In this document: positions 3,233 to 18,171 of the stretch, one piece after another
How positions within the stretch are numbered: the stretch's first letter is position 1
Layout of the letters: each line of letters opens with the position of its first letter
From: a bacterium
Lineage (GTDB): Bacteria > Bdellovibrionota > Bacteriovoracia > Bacteriovoracales > Bacteriovoracaceae
NCBI GenBank assembly: GCA_030425045.1
Contig: JAUHVL010000014.1
Coordinates: 1-64,000, forward strand
Length of the DNA: 64,000 bases
Direction of reading: 5' to 3'
Position numbers and translations under genes: made by a program
The notes under the pieces: model-generated
The model's database searches: none
The model's input: only the letters and a program-made list of their open reading frames with translations
Told to the model about the DNA's origin: nothing

Positions 3233-4645
3233 TTATTTTAGTTTAAAAGCTGCAAGTTCTTCACGAAGCCTTCTTTCAGCCTCACCAAAACGATCTCCGC
3301 CCTCTTCATCACCTGCTTCTGATCCTTCTTCAAGAATACCAACATAACGAGGTTCAGCTGCTGCTGATACAAGCTCATCATCCTCTTCTGGCTGAAGTTC
3401 AACTGATCCATCCTCAATAGACTTCATAATAACATCGAGAATGCCTTGAGCCTCAGCTGCTTCCATATCAAGAAGCTCAGCGAGTTCCTCACTTCCCATT
3501 ACCGTCAAATCACCAAGTGCCGTAATACCACCTTGTACCAGTACTTGTGCTCTTGCTTCTGTAATCCCATCAATTTGAAGAAGGTTATCAACAGACTTCG
3601 TAATTTTCTCTTGAAGTTTAGACTTACTAATAATGTTTACTTTAAATCCCGTTAACATCGCTGCTAATCTTACGTTTTGACCTCGACGACCAATGGCAAG
3701 GGCAAGTTGATCTTCTTCAACAACAACATCCATCGCTCTATCATCATAATCAGTCATAATATTTGAAATTTCAGCAGGAGCAAGAGTTGCTCTCGCAAAA
3801 TCTTCAAGTTCATCAGACCACTTAACAATATCAATTTTTTCACCTTGAAGTTCGTTAACAATATTTTGTACACGACTTCCTTTCATTCCCACACAAGCGC
3901 CAACGGGATCGATCTCTTTATCAGTTGAGATCACAGCAATTTTTGCTCTCTGACCTGGTTCACGCGCAGCAGATTTAATTTGAATCGTCCCATCTTGAAT
4001 TTCTGGTACTTCAATTTCAAAAAGCTTCACAAGGAAAAGAGGAGATGTTCTGGATAGCCTGATTTCAGGACCTCGATTCGTCATCACAACCTCAGTTAAA
4101 TAAGCTTGGATACGGTCACCAGTTTTAAAGTTTTCACCAGGAATGACTTCTCTTCTCGATAGAACAGCATCAGCTTTTCCAAGATCAACGATAATATTTC
4201 CTCTTTCATAACGACGAGCAATCCCTGTGATAAGTTCACCCTCTCTATGCTTAAACTCTGCAAAAAGAATTTCTCTTTCGGCATCTCTCACTTTTTGAAA
4301 AATAATTTGTCTTGCTGTTTGAACGTCTACTCTTGAAAAGTTAGGGTTCTCAATTCTAACACCAAGCTGATCTCCCATTTCCACATCTTCATCTAATTGG
4401 CGTGCATCATCGATTGTAATTTCAAGAATGGGATCACGAACTTCTTCGACAACGTTTTTATATTGATAAATTTCAACATCACCGTCATCAGGGTTATATC
4501 TTGTTTCGTACTCTCCTTGGATTCCAAACTTTTTACGGGCCGTAACTAAAAACGCTTGTTCAATAGCATCAATAACCACATCTTTTTCAATTCCTCGATC
4601 TTTCCCAAGTGCTTCAATTACTCTACCTAATTCAGAAAAATCCAT
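3233..4645 (-). CDS. nusA: Transcription termination/antitermination factor NusA
   Basis: 470 residues. Domains in order: the N-terminal RNA-polymerase-binding domain (about 1-130), an S1 domain (about 135-200), two KH domains (about 245-290 with the GMKGSRV loop and 308-345 with AIGRRGQN), a helix-hairpin-helix repeat (about 355-400) and an acidic tail ending RLREELAAFKLK. NusA binds elongating RNA polymerase and modulates pausing, termination and antitermination. Only one HhH-like repeat is evident, against two acidic repeats in the E. coli protein, so the C-terminus is of the shorter kind. ATG with AGAGGA upstream. Located between rimP and infB as in most bacteria. Confidence 0.97.
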   Translation of the reverse strand: MDFSELGRVIEALGKDRGIEKDVVIDAIEQAFLVTARKKFGIQGEYETRYNPDDGDVEIYQYKNVVEEVRDPILEITIDDARQLDEDVEMGDQLGVRIENPNFSRVDVQTARQIIFQKVRDAEREILFAEFKHREGELITGIARRYERGNIIVDLGKADAVLSRREVIPGENFKTGDRIQAYLTEVVMTNRGPEIRLSRTSPLFLVKLFEIEVPEIQDGTIQIKSAAREPGQRAKIAVISTDKEIDPVGACVGMKGSRVQNIVNELQGEKIDIVKWSDELEDFARATLAPAEISNIMTDYDDRAMDVVVEEDQLALAIGRRGQNVRLAAMLTGFKVNIISKSKLQEKITKSVDNLLQIDGITEARAQVLVQGGITALGDLTVMGSEELAELLDMEAAEAQGILDVIMKSIEDGSVELQPEEDDELVSAAAEPRYVGILEEGSEAGDEEGGDRFGEAERRLREELAAFKLK

Positions 4646-4684
4646 AAGTTCCTCTCTTTAATGACAATAAAATACTACCGAATT

Positions 4685-5248
4685 CTATACCGTTGTACTC
4701 TCTGCTGGGTTTTCGCTATTCATGATTTTTTCCCAGTCAGGTTCGATAGTTGCTTTTTTAATATTATTAAACTTAACTCTAACTTCTTTTTTCTCGCCTT
4801 GATCTTCAACCAAACCGATTAATTCCTCTTCACTGATGTCTTTGAGAGTGAATACAAATTTATTCTGTCCCTTAATCTTTTTTGGCAGATCAAAGTCCTC
4901 ACTCGATAGTTTTTTTAAGAGATGAAGAAGAATGTTTTCATTTTTAGCTTCTTGAAAGTGCTCTAAACTTTTAAGCTTTCTCGTCACACCTGGGCTTGAG
5001 ACCTCGAGGACAATTTTTTCCGGCATCCATGTCTCACTTTCAAATACTGGTGATAATGCTCTATCGACTGAAGCACATTCATCAATAGTTGCCGACTTGG
5101 TTTTAGGATTTCTAATATAAAGACGAACGAGGGCCTGACCTTGGATATATTCTAAATCGTAAATCTCAAGACCTTGTGCTTTCACCACAGGCTCGAAGAC
5201 TTCTCGATACCTAAGTTCAGCTTTACTCTGTTCAAATATTTGGGCCAA
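4685..5248 (-). CDS. rimP: Ribosome maturation factor RimP
   Basis: 187 residues, somewhat longer than the usual 150 or so. The N-terminal domain carries the family patterns 'G.EIYDLEYIQGQALVRLYI' and 'TIDECASVDRALSPVFE', then 'LEVSSPGVTRKLKSLEHF', which is diagnostic of RimP. It is needed for 30S subunit maturation. The start is TTG at 5248, preceded by GGGAGAGG. No other in-frame start fits as well. It is the first gene after the terminator at 5285-5320 and so should open the nusA-infB operon. Confidence 0.93.
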   Translation of the reverse strand: MAQIFEQSKAELRYREVFEPVVKAQGLEIYDLEYIQGQALVRLYIRNPKTKSATIDECASVDRALSPVFESETWMPEKIVLEVSSPGVTRKLKSLEHFQEAKNENILLHLLKKLSSEDFDLPKKIKGQNKFVFTLKDISEEELIGLVEDQGEKKEVRVKFNNIKKATIEPDWEKIMNSENPAESTTV

Positions 5249-5284
5249 AAGCCTCTCCCACAGACTTCGTTTTTAAGTGAAGTC

Positions 5285-5320
5285 AAAAAAAAAGGGCGGT
5301 TTTTAAAAAAAGCCGCCCTT
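5285..5320 (-). terminator. Intrinsic terminator between rimI-like gene and rimP
   Basis: On the minus strand an 8-bp GC-rich stem (arms 5313-5320 and 5292-5299, AAGGGCGG/CCGCCCTT) encloses a T7A5 loop and is followed by a run of seven or more T (5291-5285). It ends the transcript of the acetyltransferase gene that stops at 5409. Only about 36 bases remain before rimP, so the rimP promoter must overlap or lie close to this element, or read-through contributes. A TTGACT hexamer lies at 5280-5285 on the minus strand but I see no convincing -10 box. Confidence 0.85.
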
Positions 5321-5408
5321 ATAATAATTGCGAATGTCATAAAGACATGAAATTTCTATCAAATTTTTCACCGTGGGTCAATAAAATCGCTATTTTGCTC
5401 TCTTTTGA

Positions 5409-5876
5409 TTAGAGCGACAAAGACATGGATGCGGCGTGTCTCTCGGCACCATAAAAGTTCTTTTTTTCAACTAATCTTTCAAAGCCTGCAGAGTGATAAA
5501 AGCTCAAAGCATCGCCATTGCTCGTTTCAACCTCGAGGTAAACTTGCTTAATCATTTGTTTTTTGAGGTGATTTTTATCATGTAAAAAATGTTGGCGGCC
5601 GACACCCCTTTTTCTGTCATCTGGGACCACCAAGATTTTTAGTAAATGAGCGAAGGAATCACTTGGTCTAACCAAATAAACAGAAAACGCCAAAAGCTCC
5701 TTATCATCATGACTTGTAGAAAAATAGTATTCTTGGGAGGCTTGTGACTCAAGCCACTGAGCCTGAGACCATGGCAAAGGAAAATAAAGAGAGTCAAATG
5801 AACAAAGAGATTCAAGTTCACTCTTCTTTGCACTTTTAAATGACTTCATTTGATACTTAAGGGATAAGCCACTCAT
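5409..5876 (-). CDS. rimI: GNAT N-acetyltransferase, RimI-like
   Basis: About 155 residues from the chosen start. GNAT motif A is seen as 'VVPDDRKRGVGRQHF' (acetyl-CoA pyrophosphate loop R-x-x-G-V-G) and motif B as 'NGDALSFYHSAGF'. The N-terminal 'FPLPWSQAQW' matches the RimI 'FPWS...' pattern, so acetylation of ribosomal protein S18 or similar N-termini is likely. Start choice is uncertain: the open frame reaches a GTG at 5903. The ATG at 5876 (weak GAGAT upstream, 20-base overlap with the preceding gene) and the ATG at 5849 (best length match to RimI, no visible ribosome site) are both plausible. Followed by a strong terminator. Confidence 0.75.
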   Translation of the reverse strand: MSGLSLKYQMKSFKSAKKSELESLCSFDSLYFPLPWSQAQWLESQASQEYYFSTSHDDKELLAFSVYLVRPSDSFAHLLKILVVPDDRKRGVGRQHFLHDKNHLKKQMIKQVYLEVETSNGDALSFYHSAGFERLVEKKNFYGAERHAASMSLSL

Positions 5877-6438
5877 GATTATCTCGTTGAACAATGGCCC
5901 CACGAAATGACGCTAAAACCTTTTTGAAATTATTATTTATCTTTTGATTTTCTGAAATAAATCGATCTCTTAGATAAATCTCAAAGCTAATGATCTCCTT
6001 GAGTGTATGTGACCATTGATCATAAGAAGGAAGTGAGCAACCTCTCAGGTCATTATTTAAACGAGAATCTTTATCAAGGGTATTAAAATCGTTCGAGAAG
6101 CTAATGGCCTTTTTAAGAATGATCATTTCCTCAAGAGCTTCGCTTCTTTTTTTAAAGTTCTCAACCTTTGTTAAGTCCTTAATAGTAATCTTGGAGAACT
6201 TAAAAAGTAGACCTTTATTTTCGATACATTTTAATTTGAGAATATTATTTTTAAAAAGCTCAAGCTCAGAAGAAAAAACCACCTCTTTTCCGAAACGCGC
6301 AACCGCCGTATCTTGAGCAAAAACTGAAATAGACTCACCCTTCTCACTTGAATAAGAAGGGTGACCAAAAAATAGAATTATAAATAATAAATTATACTGG
6401 AGAACTGAGGTCAACGTTACCAATTGCTTTAGTTTCAT
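5857..6438 (-). CDS. Small exported protein of unknown function, weakly SurA-N-like
   Basis: From the ATG at 6438 the protein is 193 residues. It begins with a signal peptide (M-K-L-K, hydrophobic stretch to about residue 23, then SYSSEKG). The mature start, 'AVARFGKEVVFSSELELF', has the pattern found at the start of SurA/parvulin-type periplasmic chaperones ('avVN.evIt.SEle'), followed by mostly helical sequence. There is no PPIase domain, so it would be only the chaperone-like part. This resemblance is by eye and weak. The start overlaps the end of the regulator gene by 47 bases, and a longer frame to 6549 lacks a signal peptide at its start. It lies between the regulator and the RimI-like gene and is probably co-transcribed with both. 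Confidence 0.5.
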   Translation of the reverse strand: MKLKQLVTLTSVLQYNLLFIILFFGHPSYSSEKGESISVFAQDTAVARFGKEVVFSSELELFKNNILKLKCIENKGLLFKFSKITIKDLTKVENFKKRSEALEEMIILKKAISFSNDFNTLDKDSRLNNDLRGCSLPSYDQWSHTLKEIISFEIYLRDRFISENQKINNNFKKVLASFRGAIVQRDNHEWLIP

Positions 6439-7669
6439 TGGTACTATTTTCCATATGGAAGCGAATTTTCGTTTGAGGGTTAAAAGTATAACCATCTTTT
6501 CCTCTAATAATGTATTTTCTCTTATCACCACGGTCATTTTTAGGCTCAATAAGCTTTCTCAAACGACTTACACTGGTATAGATAAGTTTATCATGAATAA
6601 GTGGATTGTATTCGTCTTTCCAGATTTCTCTTGCAAGCTGTTCTTTGTCAAAGTAAGCACCTGGGTTTCTTGCCAATAAGAAAAGAATTTCAAGAAGAAC
6701 AAACCTATGTTTAAAATCAATAGTTCCTAGAGTTCTTTCTTTTACCTTACGGTTTGTTCTATCGAGATAAATATCAACGCTGCTATCGTTCACATCTTTG
6801 ATTTCATCTTCAATGAGCTCACTAAGTCTTCTAAAACTTACTTTATCAACTGTTTCACGTGCCAGTTCGAAAAACTCAAGTGCTTTATCATACTGACCAC
6901 TTCTTTTATTAACCATTCCCTTACCGAGAAGAATATAACCATAAAGGTTCCAACACTTCTTTTCTTGAAAAGATGAAGTAGCAAGGTGAAAAGCTTGATT
7001 AGCTTTTTCATACATACCAAGCTCAAGAAACGCTTTAGCGCTGTAGAGATACATTGCCCCATTTAAGTATTTCTTTTTAATAATCTTTAAAAGACCACCA
7101 AGCTGGTTTAAATATTCTAGTGATTGCTCATACTCCCCTCTATTAAAACTATTAACGGCTAAGGCCAATAATGTTTTTGAGAGAAGTTCAGGCTCATTTT
7201 CTTCTTTTGATTTTTTATAGGCCAGCTCGTAATTAATTCGTGCTTCTTCAAAATCGCCTTTATAAGTTCCTAGTGCTCCAATATTGTAAAAATATTCAGC
7301 GTTTAGGCTTCCCAATGTTTTAGTAAACTCATCACTAATTCTTTGGGCCTCCATAATATAAGTCATGGCCTTATCTGTTTCTTGTCTTTCTGAAGCAATA
7401 CGAATGAGAAATCCAAAGATTTTAAAAATGGAAAAGGTATCACGAGGTCTTTCAGTACAGTGGTAAGCCTTAATGAAGTTTTCTTCAGCTTGTACCAAGT
7501 CTGCTTTATCGTAAAATACTTTACCCAATTCGTAGAATGATTTGCCAATATCGTACTTGGTAACTTCCTTACCAAGATCCATCGTTTCCCCAGAAACTAA
7601 ATTAGCATAAATCAAACTGCTATTATCTCCGATGAGATTTTCAATTGGTGTCTGATTTTCTGTCTCCAT
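6392..7669 (-). CDS. TPR protein with C-terminal OmpR-type winged-helix DNA-binding domain
   Basis: 425 residues from the ATG at 7669. That start is fixed by an excellent AGGAGA 6-7 bases upstream; an earlier in-frame ATG at 7696 has none. Residues about 25-310 are helical repeats of TPR type ('GKSFYELGKVFYDKADLVQAEENF', 'YNIGALGTYKGDFEEARINYELA', 'GKGMVNKRSGQYDKALEFFELA'). Residues about 320-415 form a Trans_reg_C winged helix ('FVLLEILFLLARNPGAYFDKEQLAREIW', then the recognition helix 'YTSVSRLRKLIEP' and a wing ending 'GKDGYTFNP'). There is no receiver domain, so sensing probably occurs through the TPRs. It is likely a transcription factor and may act on the divergent region upstream. Signal and targets are unknown. 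Confidence 0.8.
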   Translation of the reverse strand: METENQTPIENLIGDNSSLIYANLVSGETMDLGKEVTKYDIGKSFYELGKVFYDKADLVQAEENFIKAYHCTERPRDTFSIFKIFGFLIRIASERQETDKAMTYIMEAQRISDEFTKTLGSLNAEYFYNIGALGTYKGDFEEARINYELAYKKSKEENEPELLSKTLLALAVNSFNRGEYEQSLEYLNQLGGLLKIIKKKYLNGAMYLYSAKAFLELGMYEKANQAFHLATSSFQEKKCWNLYGYILLGKGMVNKRSGQYDKALEFFELARETVDKVSFRRLSELIEDEIKDVNDSSVDIYLDRTNRKVKERTLGTIDFKHRFVLLEILFLLARNPGAYFDKEQLAREIWKDEYNPLIHDKLIYTSVSRLRKLIEPKNDRGDKRKYIIRGKDGYTFNPQTKIRFHMENSTNETKAIGNVDLSSPV

Positions 7670-7771
7670 TTTTTTCTCCTCATAATGGATTGCCAATAGG
7701 GCTTTCTTACATCTATTTAGGCCCTAGACATTAAACGTCATACCATGTCAAAGTTAAGTTTGCAAAAATTC

Positions 7772-9802: not shown

Positions 9803-10789
9803 ATGTCTAAAAAAAATATCCTCCTCATCTGTGGTGGCGGAGGTAAAGAGCACGATATATCACTGATTAGTGCACGCTATATAAAAGAACAGCTTGAAAA
9901 GTCCTCTTATCATGTCCATTGGATAACGATCTCAAAAGATTATCAATACCTCACTCAAAATAACGAAGAATGCTCTCTTACTCTAGATGGTTACCTTCGC
10001 TATAAAAATAATGAAAAGGTAAAAATCGATTTTGCTATACCATGTATTCATGGTCATCTTGGTGAAACAGGAGACATTCAAAGTTTATTTGAATTTATGA
10101 AGGTTCCCTATTTAGGCGCTAATGCCGAAGCAAGCATTCATTGTTTTAACAAAGTAACCACTAAACTATGGCTTGAAAAAGCAGGGCTTCCGGTTGTTCC
10201 CTACCTCATCGTTCAAGATAAAAATCTTATTGATAAACTAAGTCTCGATAAATTCTTCAAGCAGCACCAAAGTGTTTTTGTTAAGGCAAGTAATCAAGGG
10301 TCGAGTGTGGGATGTTATCTTGTCGAAGATAAAAAAGATCTCTTGCCAAAAATAGAAGAAGCTTTATCTTTATCTCCCTATGTACTGATAGAACAAAATA
10401 TAAAAGGTAGAGAGCTTGAGATCGCTTACTATCAAAATAAAGGAAATACTTTTGCTACCTACCCAGGAGAAATTGTTGTAGGGGCAAAGTTTTACGACTA
10501 TGAAGAGAAGTATTCTAGTGACAGTAAAACAAAAACACTTGTCAAAGCTCCTGATTTAAATGATGAGATTGTAGAAAAAATGAGAATAGCCGCCCTCAAT
10601 GCGGGAAGATTATTTAAAATTAAACATATGGCAAGAGTAGACTTTTTTATCGATGGTCATAACTTTTATATTAACGAAATCAACACATTTCCAGGTCACA
10701 CATCAATTAGCATGTTTCCAATGATGGTTGAACATAATGGATTACCCTACGATCAATACTTAAAAGACATAATTGAGGAAGAATCATGA
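9803..10789 (+). CDS. ddl: D-alanine--D-alanine ligase (ATP-grasp)
   Basis: 328 residues. The Ddl N-terminal motif is 'GGGGKEHDISLISARY' (the Glu that binds the first D-Ala), the serine loop is 'NQGSSVGC', the omega-loop Tyr is in 'FYDYEEKY', and the metal/ATP-binding C-terminal motif is 'ARVDFF...INEINTFPGHTSIS'. Arg, Asp, Glu and Asn positions used for Mg-ATP and the tetrahedral intermediate are all present. The Tyr in the omega loop is typical of D-Ala-D-Ala rather than D-Ala-D-lactate ligases. Strong site GGGAGGAG precedes the ATG. Its stop overlaps the next start (ATGA). A role outside peptidoglycan synthesis is possible given its amino-acid-modifying neighbours, but the active site looks orthodox. 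Confidence 0.87.
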   Translation: MSKKNILLICGGGGKEHDISLISARYIKEQLEKSSYHVHWITISKDYQYLTQNNEECSLTLDGYLRYKNNEKVKIDFAIPCIHGHLGETGDIQSLFEFMKVPYLGANAEASIHCFNKVTTKLWLEKAGLPVVPYLIVQDKNLIDKLSLDKFFKQHQSVFVKASNQGSSVGCYLVEDKKDLLPKIEEALSLSPYVLIEQNIKGRELEIAYYQNKGNTFATYPGEIVVGAKFYDYEEKYSSDSKTKTLVKAPDLNDEIVEKMRIAALNAGRLFKIKHMARVDFFIDGHNFYINEINTFPGHTSISMFPMMVEHNGLPYDQYLKDIIEEES

Positions 10790-13700
10790 AGTTAGAATTA
10801 ATCAACAAAGAAAATCAAAGTTATGCAGAAGAAGTACTCAAAGACTTTTATGAAAACGATATGATTCCTGCAGAAAAAAAGACGTACTTAACAGATCTTG
10901 AAGGAAGTACCGGGCCCTACTTAGGAATTTCATCGAAAGATGGAAAAACAAGATACTTAATGGATGCTGCTAGTCAGATTGCAACTTTAGGACTCGGCTT
11001 TAACTCTAGCGTTTTAATGGGAGCTTCTCAATTTCTAGAAAGCTGGACCAACGATAGCTCAAGTAAAACCTATCAAAATATAAGAAGCTCGCTTGAAAAA
11101 TTTTTAAAAAGAAAAACTGGATGGTCTAAAGTCTATACGAGCTTTTGTAATAGTGGTGCTGAGGCGACAGAGATGTCTCTTGGCTATTGTTATAAAAGAA
11201 GATTTAATCGTAAAGCTAATAAAGTTCTCGCCTTTGAAGGTTCTTTTCACGGTCGTATGATCGTGGCCTTAAATTCAACTTGGAATAAGGCAAAAAGAGA
11301 GCCTTTTGAATTTCCGGGTATTAATACCACTTTTGCTCCCTACCCCCAACTTGATGATGACAATATCAATCAAGCAATTCCTCAAGGCTGGAGAGAACTT
11401 TGGGACCAAGCTCCTAAAAATAAATTCTCAGTTCCATCGGAATGGAAAAATGATCCTATTTTAAAAAGTGAAATTGAATGTCTTTTAAAAGTTCGTGAAT
11501 ATTTAATGAAAGGGGAATATTTCGCTGTCCTTTTAGAACCTATGCAATGTGAGGGTGGCGATAAGTACTCCTCAGGAAGATTTCATAACGCCCTAAACCT
11601 GATGGCAAAATCATTTAAAGTTCCCTATATCTCTGACGAAGTTCAAACAGGGTTTAATCTCGGTAGAGAGTTCTTTTGGCACACACAGTTCGATATGAAA
11701 GACACAAAAGGAAATCCTCTTTTTCCAGACTATGTTATTTGTGCCAAGAAAGCTCAGGTAGGAATGGTCATCTCACCATGTGATTTTGGAAAAGATCATA
11801 TCGAAGCTCAAGAACAATTTGCTGTTGCGAGTAGTATTCGAGGATACCTTCACGGACTCTCTATCGATCAAATGCAACCAAAAACTCTTATGATTGAAAA
11901 ATGGGTAAGAGAAGAGCTTGATCGTTTTTTAAATAAATACAAGGCCTTTACTGAAAAGTCTCGATGTTGCGGTCTCGCTTTTGCTTTTGATTTAAAAAGT
12001 AAAGACCACGTCAATACTTTTGTACAAAAGAGATTCGACTATGGTCTTCTCTTCTATCCTGCTGGACAGATGACCTTACGTTTTCGAATGAATAATTCTT
12101 TCTCTCATGACGATGTTAAGTTTCTCTTTCAACAACTCTCAAGAATGGCAGATGAAATTTTTCTAGGTGAAGAAGCAAATCCTATTATGGAGGTTGAGCT
12201 AGGTGGCGCCTCTATACATCAAACATATAAATGGCAAAGACTCATTTTAAAAACAAAACTCATGGGTTTAAGAAATGAGACACCTTCTACCGATTTTATG
12301 CTTTCTGAAATAAACTCTATTATCCAAACGGAAAAAGATCATACGTTGCTAATTGTAGATGAGAGTAATTACTCATCATTTAAGGATCGTATACAAAAGC
12401 TACAAGTTGAGACTTACGAACCAACCAGACAAACTTCTGAAGAGAGGTTTAGGCTAGCTTCTGGTTCAAAGTATGGAGTTTGTTTGGGTTTACTCAAAGG
12501 TGATGAACTCATTGCAATCAGTTTTGCCTCTTCACTAAAGGATCACCCCCTAGAGAGGGCCTTAAGAAGGGATCCGAACTTTGAAGATCCACAAGCCTTG
12601 TACACCCTAGATACCACGGTAGCAAAAGCTTACCATGGCCAGGGACTTGGCAGACAGATGAAATATGCGCTTAAACTTTTGGCCATGGCAAAAGGGGCTA
12701 AAACAATTAGTGGGAGAAATAGAGATCGCCTAGCTGCTGCGATGTTAAATATTAATTTATCAGTTGGTAGTTATCAGCTTTTTCACATTGAAGAAGATTA
12801 CCCTGATTTTGAAGACTTCAGAGATGTCATTTATTACACAACAGAGCTCGCATGGGCAAAACCAGAAATGAGTCTCTCAAATAGAACATTAGCGCCTAAT
12901 GGGCACTGTGATCTCAACCCAGAATTTTTAGCTGAGAATCTTCCAAGTTTAGCAAACAAAATGTGCCTCTCAAACTTTGTAGATCAAAAGTTTTTATCAA
13001 CAGTAAAAGACTTACTCGCAGACTTCCCCGAAGACTTACGTCACGGTTATTCTTGTAGTGGTCAAAGTGAATGTGTCGATAAACTTGCAAAGTCTATATG
13101 GTACTCTGTTCACAAAAATCCTAAGAATATTTCCTTTAAAGGGCATTTCTTTGGCAATGGTAGCTTTATGTCCAGAAGTCTTTCTGATGAAACTGGTGAG
13201 CATGGATTTTTTCCGGTTACCCATCTTGATCATCCGACAGAAGATAACTGGAAAGAGGTTCTCAAAGAACTCCAACATGAAATTGAAAATGATCAATACT
13301 TAGGTGTTTGGATTGAACCCATAAGACAACTTGATATGAGTGTTGTTCCAAGAGAATTTCTTGTCGAGTTAAGAAAGCTAACTTTAGAAAATGGAATTCC
13401 CCTTCTCTACAACGAGACGGCTTCATCTCAATTTTCTTACGACAATAAATATTTTTATGCTTCATGTGACAATGAAATTTCTCCCGATGGTGGATTTGTC
13501 TTTCTTGGTGGTCAAGCAGGACTCGTTTTTATGTGCAAAGAAGTTTTTGTGGCCACCCCACTTATGATGATCAGTACATGGGATGGAGACCAGTTAAGCT
13601 TCTCTCTCTATCAACAAGCAAAAAAGCTTATTCTTGAAAACCACAAAGATTATAAAAAAGATGTTAAAGACTTTGAGAAAAAACTAATAACGACTCTAAA

Positions 13701-13860
13701 ACAATTCCAAACAAGTGATATTAATCTTAAAAACGGTAGAGGTTCTTTTAAAGGTAATATTCCGAGATCACTCTCAACACTTTTTAAGTTTTATAATGGG
13801 AAATACATTGTTAATGGAAATTGGAGTGCGATGAATACTTTTACGGAGCAATTCTCATGA
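10786..13860 (+). CDS. Triple fusion: class III aminotransferase, GNAT acetyltransferase, degenerate aminotransferase
   Basis: 1024 residues in three parts. (1) About 1-465: a class III PLP aminotransferase with 'NSGAEATE', 'SFHGRM', 'LLEPMQCEGG', D284-E285-V for the pyridine nitrogen and PLP-lysine K321 in 'AKKAQV'. That last motif resembles L-lysine 6-aminotransferases ('GKKTQV'). (2) About 470-690: a GNAT domain with the acetyl-CoA loop 'YHGQGLGRQM' (616-625) and 'RDRLAAAMLNINLSVGSY'. (3) About 700-1024: a second aminotransferase-like fold in which 'WIEPIRQL' (842-849) is kept, but the DE motif is N876-E877 and the PLP-lysine region reads 'FLGGQAG' (906-912), so it cannot hold PLP in the usual way. 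Substrate unknown; an amino group at a side-chain end of a basic amino acid is a reasonable guess. ATGA overlaps on both sides show tight coupling. Confidence 0.8.
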   Translation: MKLELINKENQSYAEEVLKDFYENDMIPAEKKTYLTDLEGSTGPYLGISSKDGKTRYLMDAASQIATLGLGFNSSVLMGASQFLESWTNDSSSKTYQNIRSSLEKFLKRKTGWSKVYTSFCNSGAEATEMSLGYCYKRRFNRKANKVLAFEGSFHGRMIVALNSTWNKAKREPFEFPGINTTFAPYPQLDDDNINQAIPQGWRELWDQAPKNKFSVPSEWKNDPILKSEIECLLKVREYLMKGEYFAVLLEPMQCEGGDKYSSGRFHNALNLMAKSFKVPYISDEVQTGFNLGREFFWHTQFDMKDTKGNPLFPDYVICAKKAQVGMVISPCDFGKDHIEAQEQFAVASSIRGYLHGLSIDQMQPKTLMIEKWVREELDRFLNKYKAFTEKSRCCGLAFAFDLKSKDHVNTFVQKRFDYGLLFYPAGQMTLRFRMNNSFSHDDVKFLFQQLSRMADEIFLGEEANPIMEVELGGASIHQTYKWQRLILKTKLMGLRNETPSTDFMLSEINSIIQTEKDHTLLIVDESNYSSFKDRIQKLQVETYEPTRQTSEERFRLASGSKYGVCLGLLKGDELIAISFASSLKDHPLERALRRDPNFEDPQALYTLDTTVAKAYHGQGLGRQMKYALKLLAMAKGAKTISGRNRDRLAAAMLNINLSVGSYQLFHIEEDYPDFEDFRDVIYYTTELAWAKPEMSLSNRTLAPNGHCDLNPEFLAENLPSLANKMCLSNFVDQKFLSTVKDLLADFPEDLRHGYSCSGQSECVDKLAKSIWYSVHKNPKNISFKGHFFGNGSFMSRSLSDETGEHGFFPVTHLDHPTEDNWKEVLKELQHEIENDQYLGVWIEPIRQLDMSVVPREFLVELRKLTLENGIPLLYNETASSQFSYDNKYFYASCDNEISPDGGFVFLGGQAGLVFMCKEVFVATPLMMISTWDGDQLSFSLYQQAKKLILENHKDYKKDVKDFEKKLITTLKQFQTSDINLKNGRGSFKGNIPRSLSTLFKFYNGKYIVNGNWSAMNTFTEQFS

Positions 13861-14948
13861 CAATTGACTGTAACTTTCCTTTACTAAAATATGAACGTGG
13901 TCAAACTTATCGCCAGTGGGGATTATCTCATGGTGAACAGTTTAAAGACGCTATTAAAGAGCTTTTTGAAATTAGAAAAGAACTTATGATCCAGAAAAAT
14001 CCATCGCTAGAAAAGATGATTACACCGCTAGCGATGGAGCAATGGAATACATCAAAGACATATTCTCCCGATCTCTGCGATGAACTTCAAGGGATTGCTG
14101 ATGGCTCTGGTTTAAGTATTGAAGATATCGTTATCTTAAATAATTATACTGACTTTAGAGATATTGAATTACCAGATGAAGGTTGCTCGACTGTGGCTTT
14201 TAGTGGGCCTCTTGCTATCAACGCAGGCCAGACTTGGGATATGCACTCCTCTGCTAAAAACTATGTCAATTTAATTCAGTGCCCGCTTAACGATGATCAT
14301 GAAGCTCTCGTCTTCTCCCTCGTTGGTTGTGTCGGTATGATGGGTGTAACAACAAAAAAGACTTTTGTTGGAGTGAATAATATAAATACAGACAATGCTC
14401 GTGCAGCGCTTATTTGGCCTGTTTTAGTGAGAGATCTACTACTCAAAAACAATTATCAAGCAATTGAAGACTCTCTGATTAATGCCCCTGTCACCTCTGG
14501 TCATAACTACCTTATTGCTGGGCATACAGAAGCATCTCATTGGGAAGTAACGCCAACAGTGTCTAAAAAAGTAGGTTATTCAAATACAACCAATAAGGCC
14601 GTAGCTTTTCATACGAACCACTGCCTTGATGAAGATATTCAAAAACTTGAACATAAATTGGCCGTTACATCCACGTCTCAAGATCGTTTTAAGACCCTTG
14701 AAAAAAATAAAGATAAATTAAAAAACTATAACGATTTAGTCAGTATTTTAAAGTCTCATGATGGCCACCCTAAATCTATTTGTAGTCACTATGAAAGTGG
14801 TGCCCAAGATCCTTCTGCTACATGTGGTGGTGGAGCATTTGATACCGAAGCGGGTATTGTTAAAATGTGGAGAGGATGTGAAACTTATGACAAGAACTAT
14901 GTTGAATATAATTTTAAATTAGAGGGAAATCGTTTTTGTCAAAAGTAA
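13857..14948 (+). CDS. C45-family Ntn hydrolase/acyltransferase (acyl-CoA:6-aminopenicillanate acyltransferase-like)
   Basis: 363 residues. The start is the ATG at 13857 overlapping the upstream stop (ATGA) with GGAG 8 bases before it; a longer frame from 13821 has no support. The N-terminal 'ERGQTYRQWGLSHGEQF' and the central 'DEGCSTVAFSG', followed by 'INAGQTWDMHSS', match the AAT/C45 family. In this family autocleavage before Cys (here C110) creates the N-terminal nucleophile that hydrolyses or transfers acyl groups on amides. Members act on isopenicillin N, beta-alanyl-dopamine and assorted N-acyl compounds. Here the substrate is unknown. It may hydrolyse an N-acyl amino acid made or used by the flanking aminotransferase/GNAT enzymes. 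No signal peptide is seen, so it is cytoplasmic. Confidence 0.8.
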   Translation: MTIDCNFPLLKYERGQTYRQWGLSHGEQFKDAIKELFEIRKELMIQKNPSLEKMITPLAMEQWNTSKTYSPDLCDELQGIADGSGLSIEDIVILNNYTDFRDIELPDEGCSTVAFSGPLAINAGQTWDMHSSAKNYVNLIQCPLNDDHEALVFSLVGCVGMMGVTTKKTFVGVNNINTDNARAALIWPVLVRDLLLKNNYQAIEDSLINAPVTSGHNYLIAGHTEASHWEVTPTVSKKVGYSNTTNKAVAFHTNHCLDEDIQKLEHKLAVTSTSQDRFKTLEKNKDKLKNYNDLVSILKSHDGHPKSICSHYESGAQDPSATCGGGAFDTEAGIVKMWRGCETYDKNYVEYNFKLEGNRFCQK

Positions 14949-16126
14949 AACCTCCTTATTTTTACTCATGGAGTAAGCAAACCTCACCTCTTACCTTTGA
15001 TGTAGATAGCTCTACTGACTTCCATTATATTTCGAACAATAATAAAGTTTTGGATTTCTCTTCCACTAGTTTTCAAGCATCATTTGGTTTAAAAAATGCA
15101 CAAATTACTGATGCTATTACACAACAATCAGAAGTTCTTCCTTTGGCCACTCCAAAGGCGACTTTTAAATTAAAAGATGATGTTAGCATTAAGCTTAAAA
15201 ACCTTATCTCTAAAGATATTCAAGGACGTATTTTTTGGACAAGTTCAGGTGCAGAGTCAATTGAAAATGCTCTTAAGATAGCACGAGACTTTACGGGTAA
15301 AGATGTTATTGTTTCAAGACAGCGCTCTTACCATGGCGCCAGTTTAGGAGCCTTATCAGTTGGGGGAGATTGGAGAACTCAAGCAGTCAGCACGGTTGAT
15401 CAATGGACTCTTCGTATACCAGGACCTGAAACTGATCCAGAAGCCAAAGAAGCACGAAAGATTATCGAGGGATTTGGGCCAGAAAAAATTGCGGGTATAT
15501 GCCTGGAAGTAATCACCGGAGGAAATGGTGTCATTGTCCCTGGAAAAAAATGGTATCGTGAAATTCAAGATATATGTGATGACTATAATTTAATTCTCAT
15601 TTTAGATGAGGTCATTTGTGGATTTGGTAGAACTGGTAATGATTTTGGATTTCATCATTATCAAGATGTACTTAAGCCAGATTTAATTTGTATGGCCAAG
15701 GCGATAACAGGTGGTTTTTTTCCTATGGGTGCCGTTTGGGTTAATGAATCTCTTGCCCTAAACTATGAACATAAAGTACTTCCTTGTGGACTGACCAATT
15801 ATGCTCACCCACTTGGACTCGCCGCCACAAACGCTACCTTAAATTATTATCAAGAAGTTAAAGAAAACTCTTTAGATAAAAGAATTCTCTTTTTTAATGA
15901 CCATCTAAGTGAGTTAAAAAATATTTCTAGTGTTAAAGAGATCAGATCAATCGGGCTTCTTGCAGCAATCGAGATCGATAGCAATTTAAGCTGGAAAGAT
16001 TTTATACAAAAAAGAATATTCGTTTATTTTTCAAATAATATTTTAATTTTAGCCCCTGCACTCAATATGCCTTTTGTTTATTTAGAAGAAGGATTCAAAA
16101 AAATAAACACAATTCTTGGAGACTAA
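14936..16126 (+). CDS. Class III PLP-dependent aminotransferase
   Basis: 396 residues from a TTG start at 14936 (AGAGG about 10 bases upstream), overlapping the preceding stop by 13 bases. Family motifs: 'FWTSSGAESIENALKIAR', 'RSYHGASLG', 'LILDEVICGFGRTG' and PLP-lysine K255 in 'ICMAKAITGGFFP'. It is most like omega-amino-acid:pyruvate, GABA or acetylornithine transaminases. It is directly followed by 3-oxoacid CoA-transferase genes, so conversion of a beta-amino acid to a 3-oxoacid, or of an omega-amino acid to a semialdehyde, would make sense. That is inference. The C-terminal small domain is slightly short. Confidence 0.83.
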   Translation: MSKVKPPYFYSWSKQTSPLTFDVDSSTDFHYISNNNKVLDFSSTSFQASFGLKNAQITDAITQQSEVLPLATPKATFKLKDDVSIKLKNLISKDIQGRIFWTSSGAESIENALKIARDFTGKDVIVSRQRSYHGASLGALSVGGDWRTQAVSTVDQWTLRIPGPETDPEAKEARKIIEGFGPEKIAGICLEVITGGNGVIVPGKKWYREIQDICDDYNLILILDEVICGFGRTGNDFGFHHYQDVLKPDLICMAKAITGGFFPMGAVWVNESLALNYEHKVLPCGLTNYAHPLGLAATNATLNYYQEVKENSLDKRILFFNDHLSELKNISSVKEIRSIGLLAAIEIDSNLSWKDFIQKRIFVYFSNNILILAPALNMPFVYLEEGFKKINTILGD

Positions 16127-16128
16127 CC

Positions 16129-16830
16129 GTGAGTAAAATATTTAAAGATGCCAAGGAAGCGCTTCATGATATTGTGAGTGGATCAACCATAATGTCCGGT
16201 GGTTTTGGTTTATGTGGAATTCCTGAAAACAGTATTAACCAACTTGAAAAGATGAATATTCAAAATCTAACAGTTATTTCTAATAATATTGGAAACTCTG
16301 GGAGAGGCCTGGTTAAGATCCTCGTTCAAGATAAAATAAAAAAAGCCTATTGTAGTTATGTTGGGGGTAATCCTGATCTTGAAAAAAGAATCATTAATAA
16401 ATCAATAGAAATTGAACTTGTTCCTCAAGGGACATTCTCTGAACGTATTCGAGCAGCGGGGATGGGAGTTCGAGCTTTTTACACTCCAACCGGGTATGGA
16501 ACTATCGTAGCAGAAGGAAAGGATGTAAAAGTTTTTGATCGACCATGTATTCTCGAAGAGGCCTTACATGCTGACTTTGCTCTTATAAAAGCTCAGAAGG
16601 CCGATGAATATGGCAACTTATGGTTTAAAGAAACAGCAAGAAACTTTTCCCCCCTCATGGCCATGGCAGCAAAAACAACAATCGTAGAAGCTGAAGAGAT
16701 TGTTCCACTAGGTGCAATACCAGCAGAAGACGTACACTTACCTGGAATCTTTGTACAAAGAGTTTATCTTGGAAAAGACTATCAAAACGATATTGAGTTT
16801 TTAATTACAGATGAAGGAGAAAACTCATGA
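16129..16830 (+). CDS. scoA: 3-oxoacid CoA-transferase, subunit A
   Basis: 233 residues, GTG start with GGAG seven bases upstream. 'GSTIMSGGFGLCGIPENSI' near the N-terminus, 'YVGGNPDLEKRI', 'VPQGTFSERIRAAGMGVRAFYTPTGYGT' and 'LIKAQKADEYGNLW' are hallmarks of the SCOT/AtoD-type alpha subunit. With subunit B it moves CoA from succinyl-CoA (or another donor) onto a 3-oxoacid such as acetoacetate. It overlaps the B gene by ATGA. Located after an aminotransferase rather than next to thiolase or hydroxybutyrate dehydrogenase genes. Confidence 0.9.
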   Translation: MSKIFKDAKEALHDIVSGSTIMSGGFGLCGIPENSINQLEKMNIQNLTVISNNIGNSGRGLVKILVQDKIKKAYCSYVGGNPDLEKRIINKSIEIELVPQGTFSERIRAAGMGVRAFYTPTGYGTIVAEGKDVKVFDRPCILEEALHADFALIKAQKADEYGNLWFKETARNFSPLMAMAAKTTIVEAEEIVPLGAIPAEDVHLPGIFVQRVYLGKDYQNDIEFLITDEGENS

Positions 16831-17435
16831 CTTGGTCAAAAACCGAAATGGCAAAAGAAGTTATTCAGTTTTTTAAACCAGGTGATTACGTCAATTTGGG
16901 AATCGGTATTCCCTCTCTGGTTGCAGAACATATAGGAGCTGGCTTAGATATTCATATTCATTCTGAAAATGGTGTTCTCGGAGTTTCTGGAAGGCCCTCT
17001 CAACAGTCAGTCTCTCCTACTCTCATCAATGCAGGCAAAGAGACCATTTCAATAAAAGATGGTGCTTCATTTTTTGATAGCTCTCTTTCTTTTGGGATGA
17101 TCCGAGGTGGTCATATTGATTTTAGTGTACTTGGCGGAATGGAAGTGGATGTGGAGGGGAATTTAGCGAACTGGATGATTCCCGGAAAGAAGATCACCGG
17201 AATGGGCGGAGCAATGGACCTCGTCAACGGGGCAAAAAATGTCGTCGTCATGATGAGTCATTTTAATAAATCTGGCGACGCCAAATTAGTTTCTTCTACG
17301 AAACTTCCCCTCACGGGAAAAAACGTTGTCGATCTCGTTGTCACAGATAAGGGAATTTTCAAACCCAACCAAAAAAGTTTTGATATAATAAAACTTGCAG
17401 ATAATGTTAAAGAAGAGGATTTAAAACTTCCTTAA
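16827..17435 (+). CDS. scoB: 3-oxoacid CoA-transferase, subunit B
   Basis: 202 residues. 'DYVNLGIGIPSLVAEHI' followed by the catalytic glutamate E47 in 'HSENGVLG' is the beta-subunit signature. 'SFGMIRGGHIDFSVLGGMEVD' and 'KGIFKP' are also typical. The glutamate forms the enzyme-CoA thioester. GGAG precedes the ATG. It forms a heteromer with the protein encoded just upstream. Confidence 0.92.
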   Translation: MTWSKTEMAKEVIQFFKPGDYVNLGIGIPSLVAEHIGAGLDIHIHSENGVLGVSGRPSQQSVSPTLINAGKETISIKDGASFFDSSLSFGMIRGGHIDFSVLGGMEVDVEGNLANWMIPGKKITGMGGAMDLVNGAKNVVVMMSHFNKSGDAKLVSSTKLPLTGKNVVDLVVTDKGIFKPNQKSFDIIKLADNVKEEDLKLP

Positions 17436-17444
17436 AGAGAATAA

Positions 17445-17837
17445 GTGGCACAAAAACTTTTTGATAATTTTGAACTTTCTTTTTTTTTCTCAAGAGGAGG
17501 AAACTCTCCTTACACATGTATCTACACTGAATCAATAGACTACTCCGTAAACACTCCTTATCTAGCTTATGATATACCGGAGCTCCTAAGATTAATTATT
17601 ATTAAAAAAGAACTTATGGATGATGAGTTAGTTAACTATTATTACCGTAACTCAAATAATAGTATTTGCCTTATTTTAGAGTGGAATGAGTTGGTTAGAA
17701 AAGTCGTTCGATTCTCAACAAAAACGGAATTAGATATTCATCAATTCAAAGAATTTGTCACACAAAATAAAGAAGAAATAGCTAAACATTTTAAAAAATC
17801 ATTTTTTAAATTTCAGGATCAATATGAAACAGTTTAG
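17445..17837 (+). CDS. Unknown protein, 130 residues
   Basis: Starts at GTG 17445 (AAAGAGAA upstream), nine bases after scoB. Soluble, rich in aromatic and acidic residues ('FFFSRGGNSPYTCIYTESIDYSVNTPYLAYD'), with no signal peptide, no membrane segment and no motif I recognise. Its end overlaps the PilZ gene by 14 bases, so it is translated together with a predicted c-di-GMP-binding protein and may work with it. Confidence 0.6.
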   Translation: MAQKLFDNFELSFFFSRGGNSPYTCIYTESIDYSVNTPYLAYDIPELLRLIIIKKELMDDELVNYYYRNSNNSICLILEWNELVRKVVRFSTKTELDIHQFKEFVTQNKEEIAKHFKKSFFKFQDQYETV

Positions 17838-18171
17838 AGAGCTACCTCGCTATGATGTAACTCATCTAAGAGGTTTTATCGTCACCATGATTAACGATCA
17901 CAAGGTCTCAATCCCAATAAGAAATGTTTCTCTAGGTGGTCTCCAAGTCATCTGCAATCAAGAACTTTATTTAAATGATGAGGAAGTCGAAATACATCTT
18001 ATAGAAAAAAAACCATTTCTTATAAAAATCTATAATGTTTGGAAAATCACAAACGAAGATAATAAATATCAAGCAGGCTTTCGATTTCAATTCAAAGATG
18101 TCCGCTCTTTTCAACGCTGGTTACAGGTAATGAAAGCTCTTCATCTTCATAAATCTAAAAAGAAAAACTAG
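17824..18171 (+). CDS. PilZ-domain protein (predicted c-di-GMP receptor)
   Basis: 115 residues, a single PilZ domain. The two ligand-binding elements are visible: the N-terminal arginine motif 'RELPRYD' (R-x3-R) and, about 27 residues on, 'NVSLGGLQV' ((D/N)-x-S-x-x-G). C-di-GMP binding is therefore expected, with output by protein contact because no other domain is attached. It overlaps the unknown gene upstream and converges with the polymerase gene on the other strand with a 4-base overlap, leaving no room for a terminator. Confidence 0.82.
   Translation: MKQFRELPRYDVTHLRGFIVTMINDHKVSIPIRNVSLGGLQVICNQELYLNDEEVEIHLIEKKPFLIKIYNVWKITNEDNKYQAGFRFQFKDVRSFQRWLQVMKALHLHKSKKKN

Follow-up and report, generated by a model that had tools for sequence, protein, structure and literature searches.

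In a 64,000-nucleotide stretch of a Bacteriovoracaceae genome (assembly GCA_030425045.1, contig JAUHVL010000014.1, positions 1 to 64,000; hereafter the window), six genes form a single transcribed row on the + strand at 9803-17435. They encode a D-alanine--D-alanine ligase (Ddl), a 1024-residue fusion protein that we call TRI, a C45-family protein (C45), a second class III aminotransferase (AT3) and the two subunits of a 3-oxoacid coenzyme A (CoA) transferase (ScoA and ScoB). The last five look like the genes of a little-known acetylation-dependent lysine catabolic route in this predatory family.

A gene row with a conserved five-gene cassette

All six open reading frames were verified, and family searches back each of the gene names (Table 1). 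The junctions between successive genes are -4, -4, -13, +2 and -4 bases, with an ATGA overlap at three of them and a plausible ribosome-binding site ahead of most of the genes. A preliminary description of this DNA had reported six closely packed genes with overlaps and catalytic motifs, and the reading frames, junction gaps and family matches all bear it out.

The conserved unit, however, is five genes (TRI, C45, AT3, ScoA and ScoB, at 10786-17435) and not six. Each genus of the family that carries TRI and had a checkable contig keeps the order TRI-C45-AT3-ScoA-ScoB, with protein identities of about 35-79%. The preliminary description had proposed a search for the same gene order in other genomes and had named scattered homologues in relatives as the result that would count against it. 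We found the order conserved across the family for the five genes, while Ddl turned out not to be specific to the unit. Among the relatives that we searched, high-scoring TRI matches came from family f7 and from 15 Bacteriovoracaceae genera besides that of the window. Across the wider phylum it is present in 62 of 369 genomes, of which 58 are Bacteriovoracaceae and four belong to families f7, f26 and f27, and the named records that carry it are Bacteriovoracaceae. A search for TRI on plasmids matched generic aminotransferases only.

Next to the cassette are a divergent regulator gene and one or both of thrS and ddl. Relatives that lack TRI have this regulator-thrS-ddl locus in full, without any of the five cassette genes. 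Almost every complete genome of the family has one good Ddl homologue whether or not it has TRI (G004 is the outlier), and in L042, a TRI genome, no ddl precedes the cassette. For these reasons we consider Ddl to be a housekeeping neighbour and not, as the preliminary description had it, a member of the route.

TRI and C45 are adjacent in all families that have TRI, and the pair recurs in three families beyond Bacteriovoracaceae. Because they are the only cassette genes that stay side by side in f7 and f26, we regard them as the core; in f27 the pair is joined by AT3, at a contig edge. Within 11 kb of TRI-C45 in G042, a member of f7, there are a thiolase, a CoA-transferase pair and a YodT-like aminotransferase that shares 35% identity with its Bacillus counterpart. 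In G008 (L048 2591-3914) the ddl and TRI reading frames are fragmented, possibly by assembly errors.

Table 1. Genes and protein domains of the row, with positions in the window.
Feature	Position	Strand	Support	Remark
Ddl, D-alanine--D-alanine ligase	9803..10789	+	NF002527 329 bits, cut-off 310	co-transcribed neighbour, judged outside pathway
TRI residues 1-458, lysine-epsilon-aminotransferase-like class III aminotransferase domain	10786..12160	+		active-site residues kept
TRI residues ~516-695, GNAT acetyltransferase domain	12331..12870	+	Acetyltransf_1	(Q)GxGLG acyl-CoA loop
TRI residues ~696-1024, degenerate aminotransferase domain	12871..13857	+	Aminotran_3 E 9.8e-5	no pyridoxal phosphate lysine
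C45-family N-terminal-nucleophile amidohydrolase/acyltransferase	13857..14948	+	NF040521 153 bits, cut-off 85	predicted N-deacetylase
AT3, second class III aminotransferase	14936..16126	+	PF00202 E 4.2e-54	omega-amino acid type
ScoA, 3-oxoacid CoA-transferase subunit A	16129..16830	+	TIGR02429 247.5 bits, cut-off 128.5	
ScoB, 3-oxoacid CoA-transferase subunit B	16827..17435	+	TIGR02428 262.4 bits, cut-off 243.55	SENG motif

Behind the cassette, at 17445-18171, are a 130-aa protein without a Pfam match and an overlapping PilZ-domain protein. On the other side, the - strand encodes at 6392-7696 and 3233-6549 the divergent regulator, which combines TPR with an OmpR-type winged helix, and the genes that lie further out. 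Their order beside thrS-ddl is kept in genomes with and without the cassette and is not cassette-specific. We found no Rfam families, including riboswitches, in the window or at the KamA loci described below. A scan for promoters and terminators gave matches below chance expectation and was uninformative.

The fusion enzyme and its partner proteins

The class III aminotransferase match of TRI spans residues 49-453, and the best PDB matches of this first domain are L-lysine epsilon-aminotransferase (E 3.6e-31 with a profile of 16 homologues). It retains the KK-Q active-site motif of the lysine enzyme (2cin), and K321, K322, D284, E256 and R157 are invariant in the 16 TRI homologues, which gives the domain both the pyridoxal phosphate (PLP) lysine and the PLP-contacting Asp. 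The GNAT domain matches Acetyltransf_1 with an E of 0.0028 in the window and 4.8e-4 in the L038 homologue, and G622, K626, N645 and R646 are invariant; the match is weak but real. When the C-terminal domain is aligned to domain 1 with hhalign (Prob 96.3, E 1.6e-9), the K321-K322 pair stands opposite G-G, and the PLP lysine of class III aminotransferases is missing. The proposal in the preliminary description that this is a triple fusion is confirmed by the Acetyltransf_1 and Aminotran_3 matches and by the change from KK to GG. As far as its sequence tells, TRI is a new fusion, in which a putative acetyltransferase separates a working aminotransferase half from a dead one.

The dead half has a loop, STWDGD (residues 930-935, S930-D935), that is invariant in 16 of 16 TRI C-terminal domains, whereas the active domain has SxxRG where the lysine enzyme has its STWGGN loop. 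In class III aminotransferases the STW loop is contributed by the partner subunit. The simplest inference is that the dead domain would donate its active-site loop to the live one, so that each TRI chain would form a pseudo-heterodimer with a single complete active site. An AlphaFold model from a two-sequence alignment was unusable, with a mean pLDDT (predicted local distance difference test score) of 33.5, so the shared active site is something that we infer.

C45 matches isopenicillin N acyltransferase (2x1d), the type enzyme of its family, at E 1.7e-14. The two have in common the C45 fold and a predicted Gly-Cys autoprocessing site, although the similarity is weak over most of the chain, and the operon and the predicted substrate are different. 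G109-C110 is near-invariant in 22 homologues and provides the nucleophile Cys directly after the predicted autocleavage site. Since the chemistry of isopenicillin N acyltransferase spans both amides and CoA thioesters, it fits a candidate C45 deacetylase that would act on a CoA ester.

The closest PDB match of AT3 is taurine:2-oxoglutarate aminotransferase (6jix). With TRI, the cassette has two class III aminotransferases, as a route with two transaminations calls for, by family assignment and with predicted substrates. The best PDB matches of ScoB are succinyl-CoA:3-ketoacid CoA-transferase B (3cdk and 3rrl). The cassette ScoA belongs to a subfamily (69-79% identity) found only in TRI genomes, and at E<=1e-20 the window's own genome has no other ScoA match. 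The same genome has four thiolases above the cut-off, which together with ScoAB supply CoA activation and thiolysis at the level of protein family, again with predicted substrates.

KamA and KamD in the family

A route that begins with beta-lysine needs a source of it, and the window's own genome encodes the lysine 2,3-aminomutase KamA at C11:1129-2454, away from the cassette. Aligned to the solved enzyme 2a5h, this protein conserves Arg134, Asp293, Asp330, Lys337 and CxxxCxxC, which we take to be the residues that mark a lysine-type enzyme. Across the 129 genomes of the family, KamA is present in 53 of the 58 with the cassette and in 6 of the 71 without it. All 39 cassette genomes that are >=90% complete have KamA, and the five cassette genomes without it are only 68-88% complete. 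Of the six genomes that have KamA and lack TRI, two are incomplete (84% and 56%) and come from TRI-bearing genera, and the other four (genera g12, g20 and g26) carry KamD, the lysine 5,6-aminomutase through which beta-lysine is classically broken down.

KamD was found in 10 of the 129 genomes, and neither in the window's own genome nor in any of the 58 cassette genomes, which therefore lack the enzyme that a KamD-type fermentation depends on. In g20 and g26, KamA adjoins the genes for KDD, KamB and KamC, and in g12 the genes for KamDE, KCE and a HemL-like aminotransferase are clustered as in the Kat variant of lysine fermentation (PMC3149608). At individual loci (L104, L105, L140, L139, L141 and L150) we saw KamB, KamC, KamD, KamE, KDD and KCE accompanied by a HemL-like aminotransferase similar to Kat, and never by TRI. 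The KamA-KamDE-Kdd-Kce fermentation does share its KamA start with the cassette, and the Kat variant likewise relies on an aminotransferase of class III and on a CoA-transferase (PMC3149608). Since the genera with KamA and no TRI carry KamD, and KamD never occurs with TRI, we conclude that the family has one KamA with two mutually exclusive downstream gene sets.

Outside the family, three of the four TRI genomes have a canonical-type KamA, but relatives that lack TRI often have KamA-family proteins too. Two conjugative plasmids, a Klebsiella oxytoca IncFII plasmid (L151) and a Rhizobium plasmid (L152), carry KamA proteins with 43-48% identity to the long KamA of the predators, with hypothetical genes alongside.

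A candidate beta-lysine route and its alternatives

The association of KamA with the cassette is strong, and the mechanism that we build on it is a predicted one. We give a probability of about 0.58 to the reading that the five genes and KamA carry out a KamA-fed degradation of beta-lysine through N-acyl intermediates. KamA would convert lysine to beta-lysine, and TRI would first use its GNAT domain to acetylate the distal amine of beta-lysine and then its active aminotransferase domain to turn N6-acetyl-beta-lysine into 6-acetamido-3-oxohexanoate. Onto this ScoAB would transfer CoA, and a thiolase encoded elsewhere would split off acetyl-CoA from a 4-acetamidobutyryl unit. C45 would deacetylate the 4-acetamidobutyryl product to 4-aminobutyrate, and AT3 would transaminate the latter. 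The substrates, the nitrogen that is acetylated and the final dehydrogenase are all predictions, and this exact order of steps is tentative, with the odds somewhat against it.

These predicted activities match one to one those of the acetyl-beta-lysine degradation that the Barker laboratory reportedly worked out biochemically in Pseudomonas sp. (EC 2.6.1.65, EC 3.5.1.51): a beta-lysine acetyltransferase, an N6-acetyl-beta-lysine transaminase, a CoA-dependent cleavage of the 3-oxo acid, a 4-acetamidobutyryl-CoA deacetylase and a separate 4-aminobutyrate transaminase. The differences are that the acetyltransferase and the transaminase are fused in TRI and that the cassette substrates are predicted. 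We know of no genes assigned to the Pseudomonas route, and this includes the transaminase and the deacetylase.

The other system that the cassette resembles is the kamA operon of Bacillaceae (yodT-yodS-yodR-yodQ-yodP-kamA in B. subtilis). In three plasmid records, in the third of which KamA was located by search, it consists of an aminotransferase, a CoA-transferase A, a 3-oxoacid CoA-transferase B, an ArgE/DapE-type (M20) deacylase, the beta-lysine acetyltransferase AblB and KamA. The part list is the same and the aminotransferase is of class III; however, the deacylase is M20 in place of C45, kamA lies inside the operon, and there is a single aminotransferase and no fusion. ScoA and ScoB are 36-44% identical to the Bacillus proteins and AT3 about 25%. 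The gene sets of Bacteriovoracaceae, Bacillaceae and G042 thus converge on an acetyltransferase, a transaminase, a CoA-transferase and a deacylase. The Bacillus equivalent, YodT, is itself still of unknown function (PMC6522883).

With these two precedents the pathway can be named, which the preliminary description had said it could not do. Its suggestion that an N-acylated beta- or omega-amino acid loses its acyl group, becomes a 3-oxo acid by transamination and is then handed to CoA came near the best-supported model and missed the key link to KamA and beta-lysine, while its idea of a reverse, biosynthetic use to make an unusual amino acid found no support. The best reading narrows the substrate to beta-lysine and takes the ligase out of the route.

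Several points weigh against the beta-lysine model. KamA lies elsewhere with varying neighbours and never beside the cassette, and in G056 TRI-C45 is present and no KamA was found. Kinship can explain much of the KamA-TRI statistics: on a marker-protein tree TRI changes only about 3 times, which leaves 3 independent pairs at most, and with so few independent changes the co-occurrence within the family cannot reach significance after kinship correction. A relationship between the GNAT domain of TRI and AblB was undetectable. The window's own genome gave no succinate-semialdehyde dehydrogenase match at E<=1e-120, a threshold that does not exclude weaker matches or general aldehyde dehydrogenases. 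Finally, domain 1 of TRI is closest to an epsilon-specific lysine enzyme and also suits another regiochemistry.

That last point leads to the least unlikely of the alternatives, in which beta-lysine would be protected by GNAT at its 3-amino group and lose its 6-amino group to the lysine-epsilon-aminotransferase-like domain, and an aldehyde dehydrogenase encoded elsewhere would give N-acetyl-3-aminoadipate. Deacetylation by C45 and transamination by AT3 would then yield 3-oxoadipate, which ScoAB and a thiolase would convert to succinyl-CoA and acetyl-CoA. The lysine epsilon-aminotransferase is the closest solved relative of TRI domain 1, the gene order TRI-C45-AT3-ScoAB would mirror the order of reactions, and the pcaI/scoA and pcaJ/scoB families to which ScoAB belong include 3-oxoadipate CoA-transferases; but among solved structures ScoB comes closest to succinyl-CoA:3-ketoacid (acetoacetate) enzymes, and the operon does not encode the aldehyde dehydrogenase that would be required. 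To our knowledge there is no biochemical precedent for this variant of beta-lysine breakdown. We also judge it unlikely that the genes are merely co-directional, with separate roles such as acetoacetate use or omega-amino acid use, and stand together by chance or through shared thrS transcription. Each enzyme family has common uses on its own, and ScoAB relatives do occur in genomes without TRI, yet the five genes are gained or lost as a single block beside a constant thrS-ddl, and the cassette ScoA subfamily was found only together with TRI.

It seems improbable that the product is N-acetyl-beta-lysine or some other osmolyte or natural product made from lysine, and that the remaining genes serve its turnover. 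KamA and an acetyltransferase are indeed a recipe for N-epsilon-acetyl-beta-lysine, which methanogens and Bacillus make with AblA/AblB. A hydrolase, two transaminases and a CoA-transferase, however, make up a degradative set, and the cassette is mutually exclusive with KamD, which belongs to another degradative pathway. Very improbable, finally, is that TRI and C45 stand in for the acyltransferase, aminotransferase and deacylase that form the acyl branch between DapB and DapF in diaminopimelate synthesis. Some lysine-synthesis genes do adjoin the pair: dapF is just upstream of TRI-C45 in G056 (L051 11949-12728), and in G042 dapB is ~4 kb away, with dapA/dapB near the cluster (L050 3-1201). We have no explanation for this proximity to a predicted lysine-degradation pair. 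A DapD-like acyltransferase is present, however, in nearly all genomes of the family with and without TRI, as well as in G042, G056 and the window's own genome, and this speaks against TRI-C45 as a replacement for a missing DapD. Diaminopimelate synthesis would also have no role for ScoAB and AT3 and would leave the co-occurrence with KamA unexplained.

Coming back to beta-lysine degradation, a joint reading of the enzymes is possible, though we would not put it at even odds: TRI as a single-chain pseudo-heterodimer in which GNAT hands its product to the shared site, TRI as the gene for the N6-acetyl-beta-lysine transaminase, C45 as the deacetylase, and a beta-lysine route assembled independently of that in Bacillus. 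For enzymes so far known only through biochemical work done decades ago, the cassette offers testable candidate genes at each step, and it can be set beside the Bacillus solution as a second one built from largely non-homologous parts. TRI may reveal how a duplicated aminotransferase turned into a single asymmetric catalytic unit, and in one predatory family beta-lysine would have two exclusive fates.

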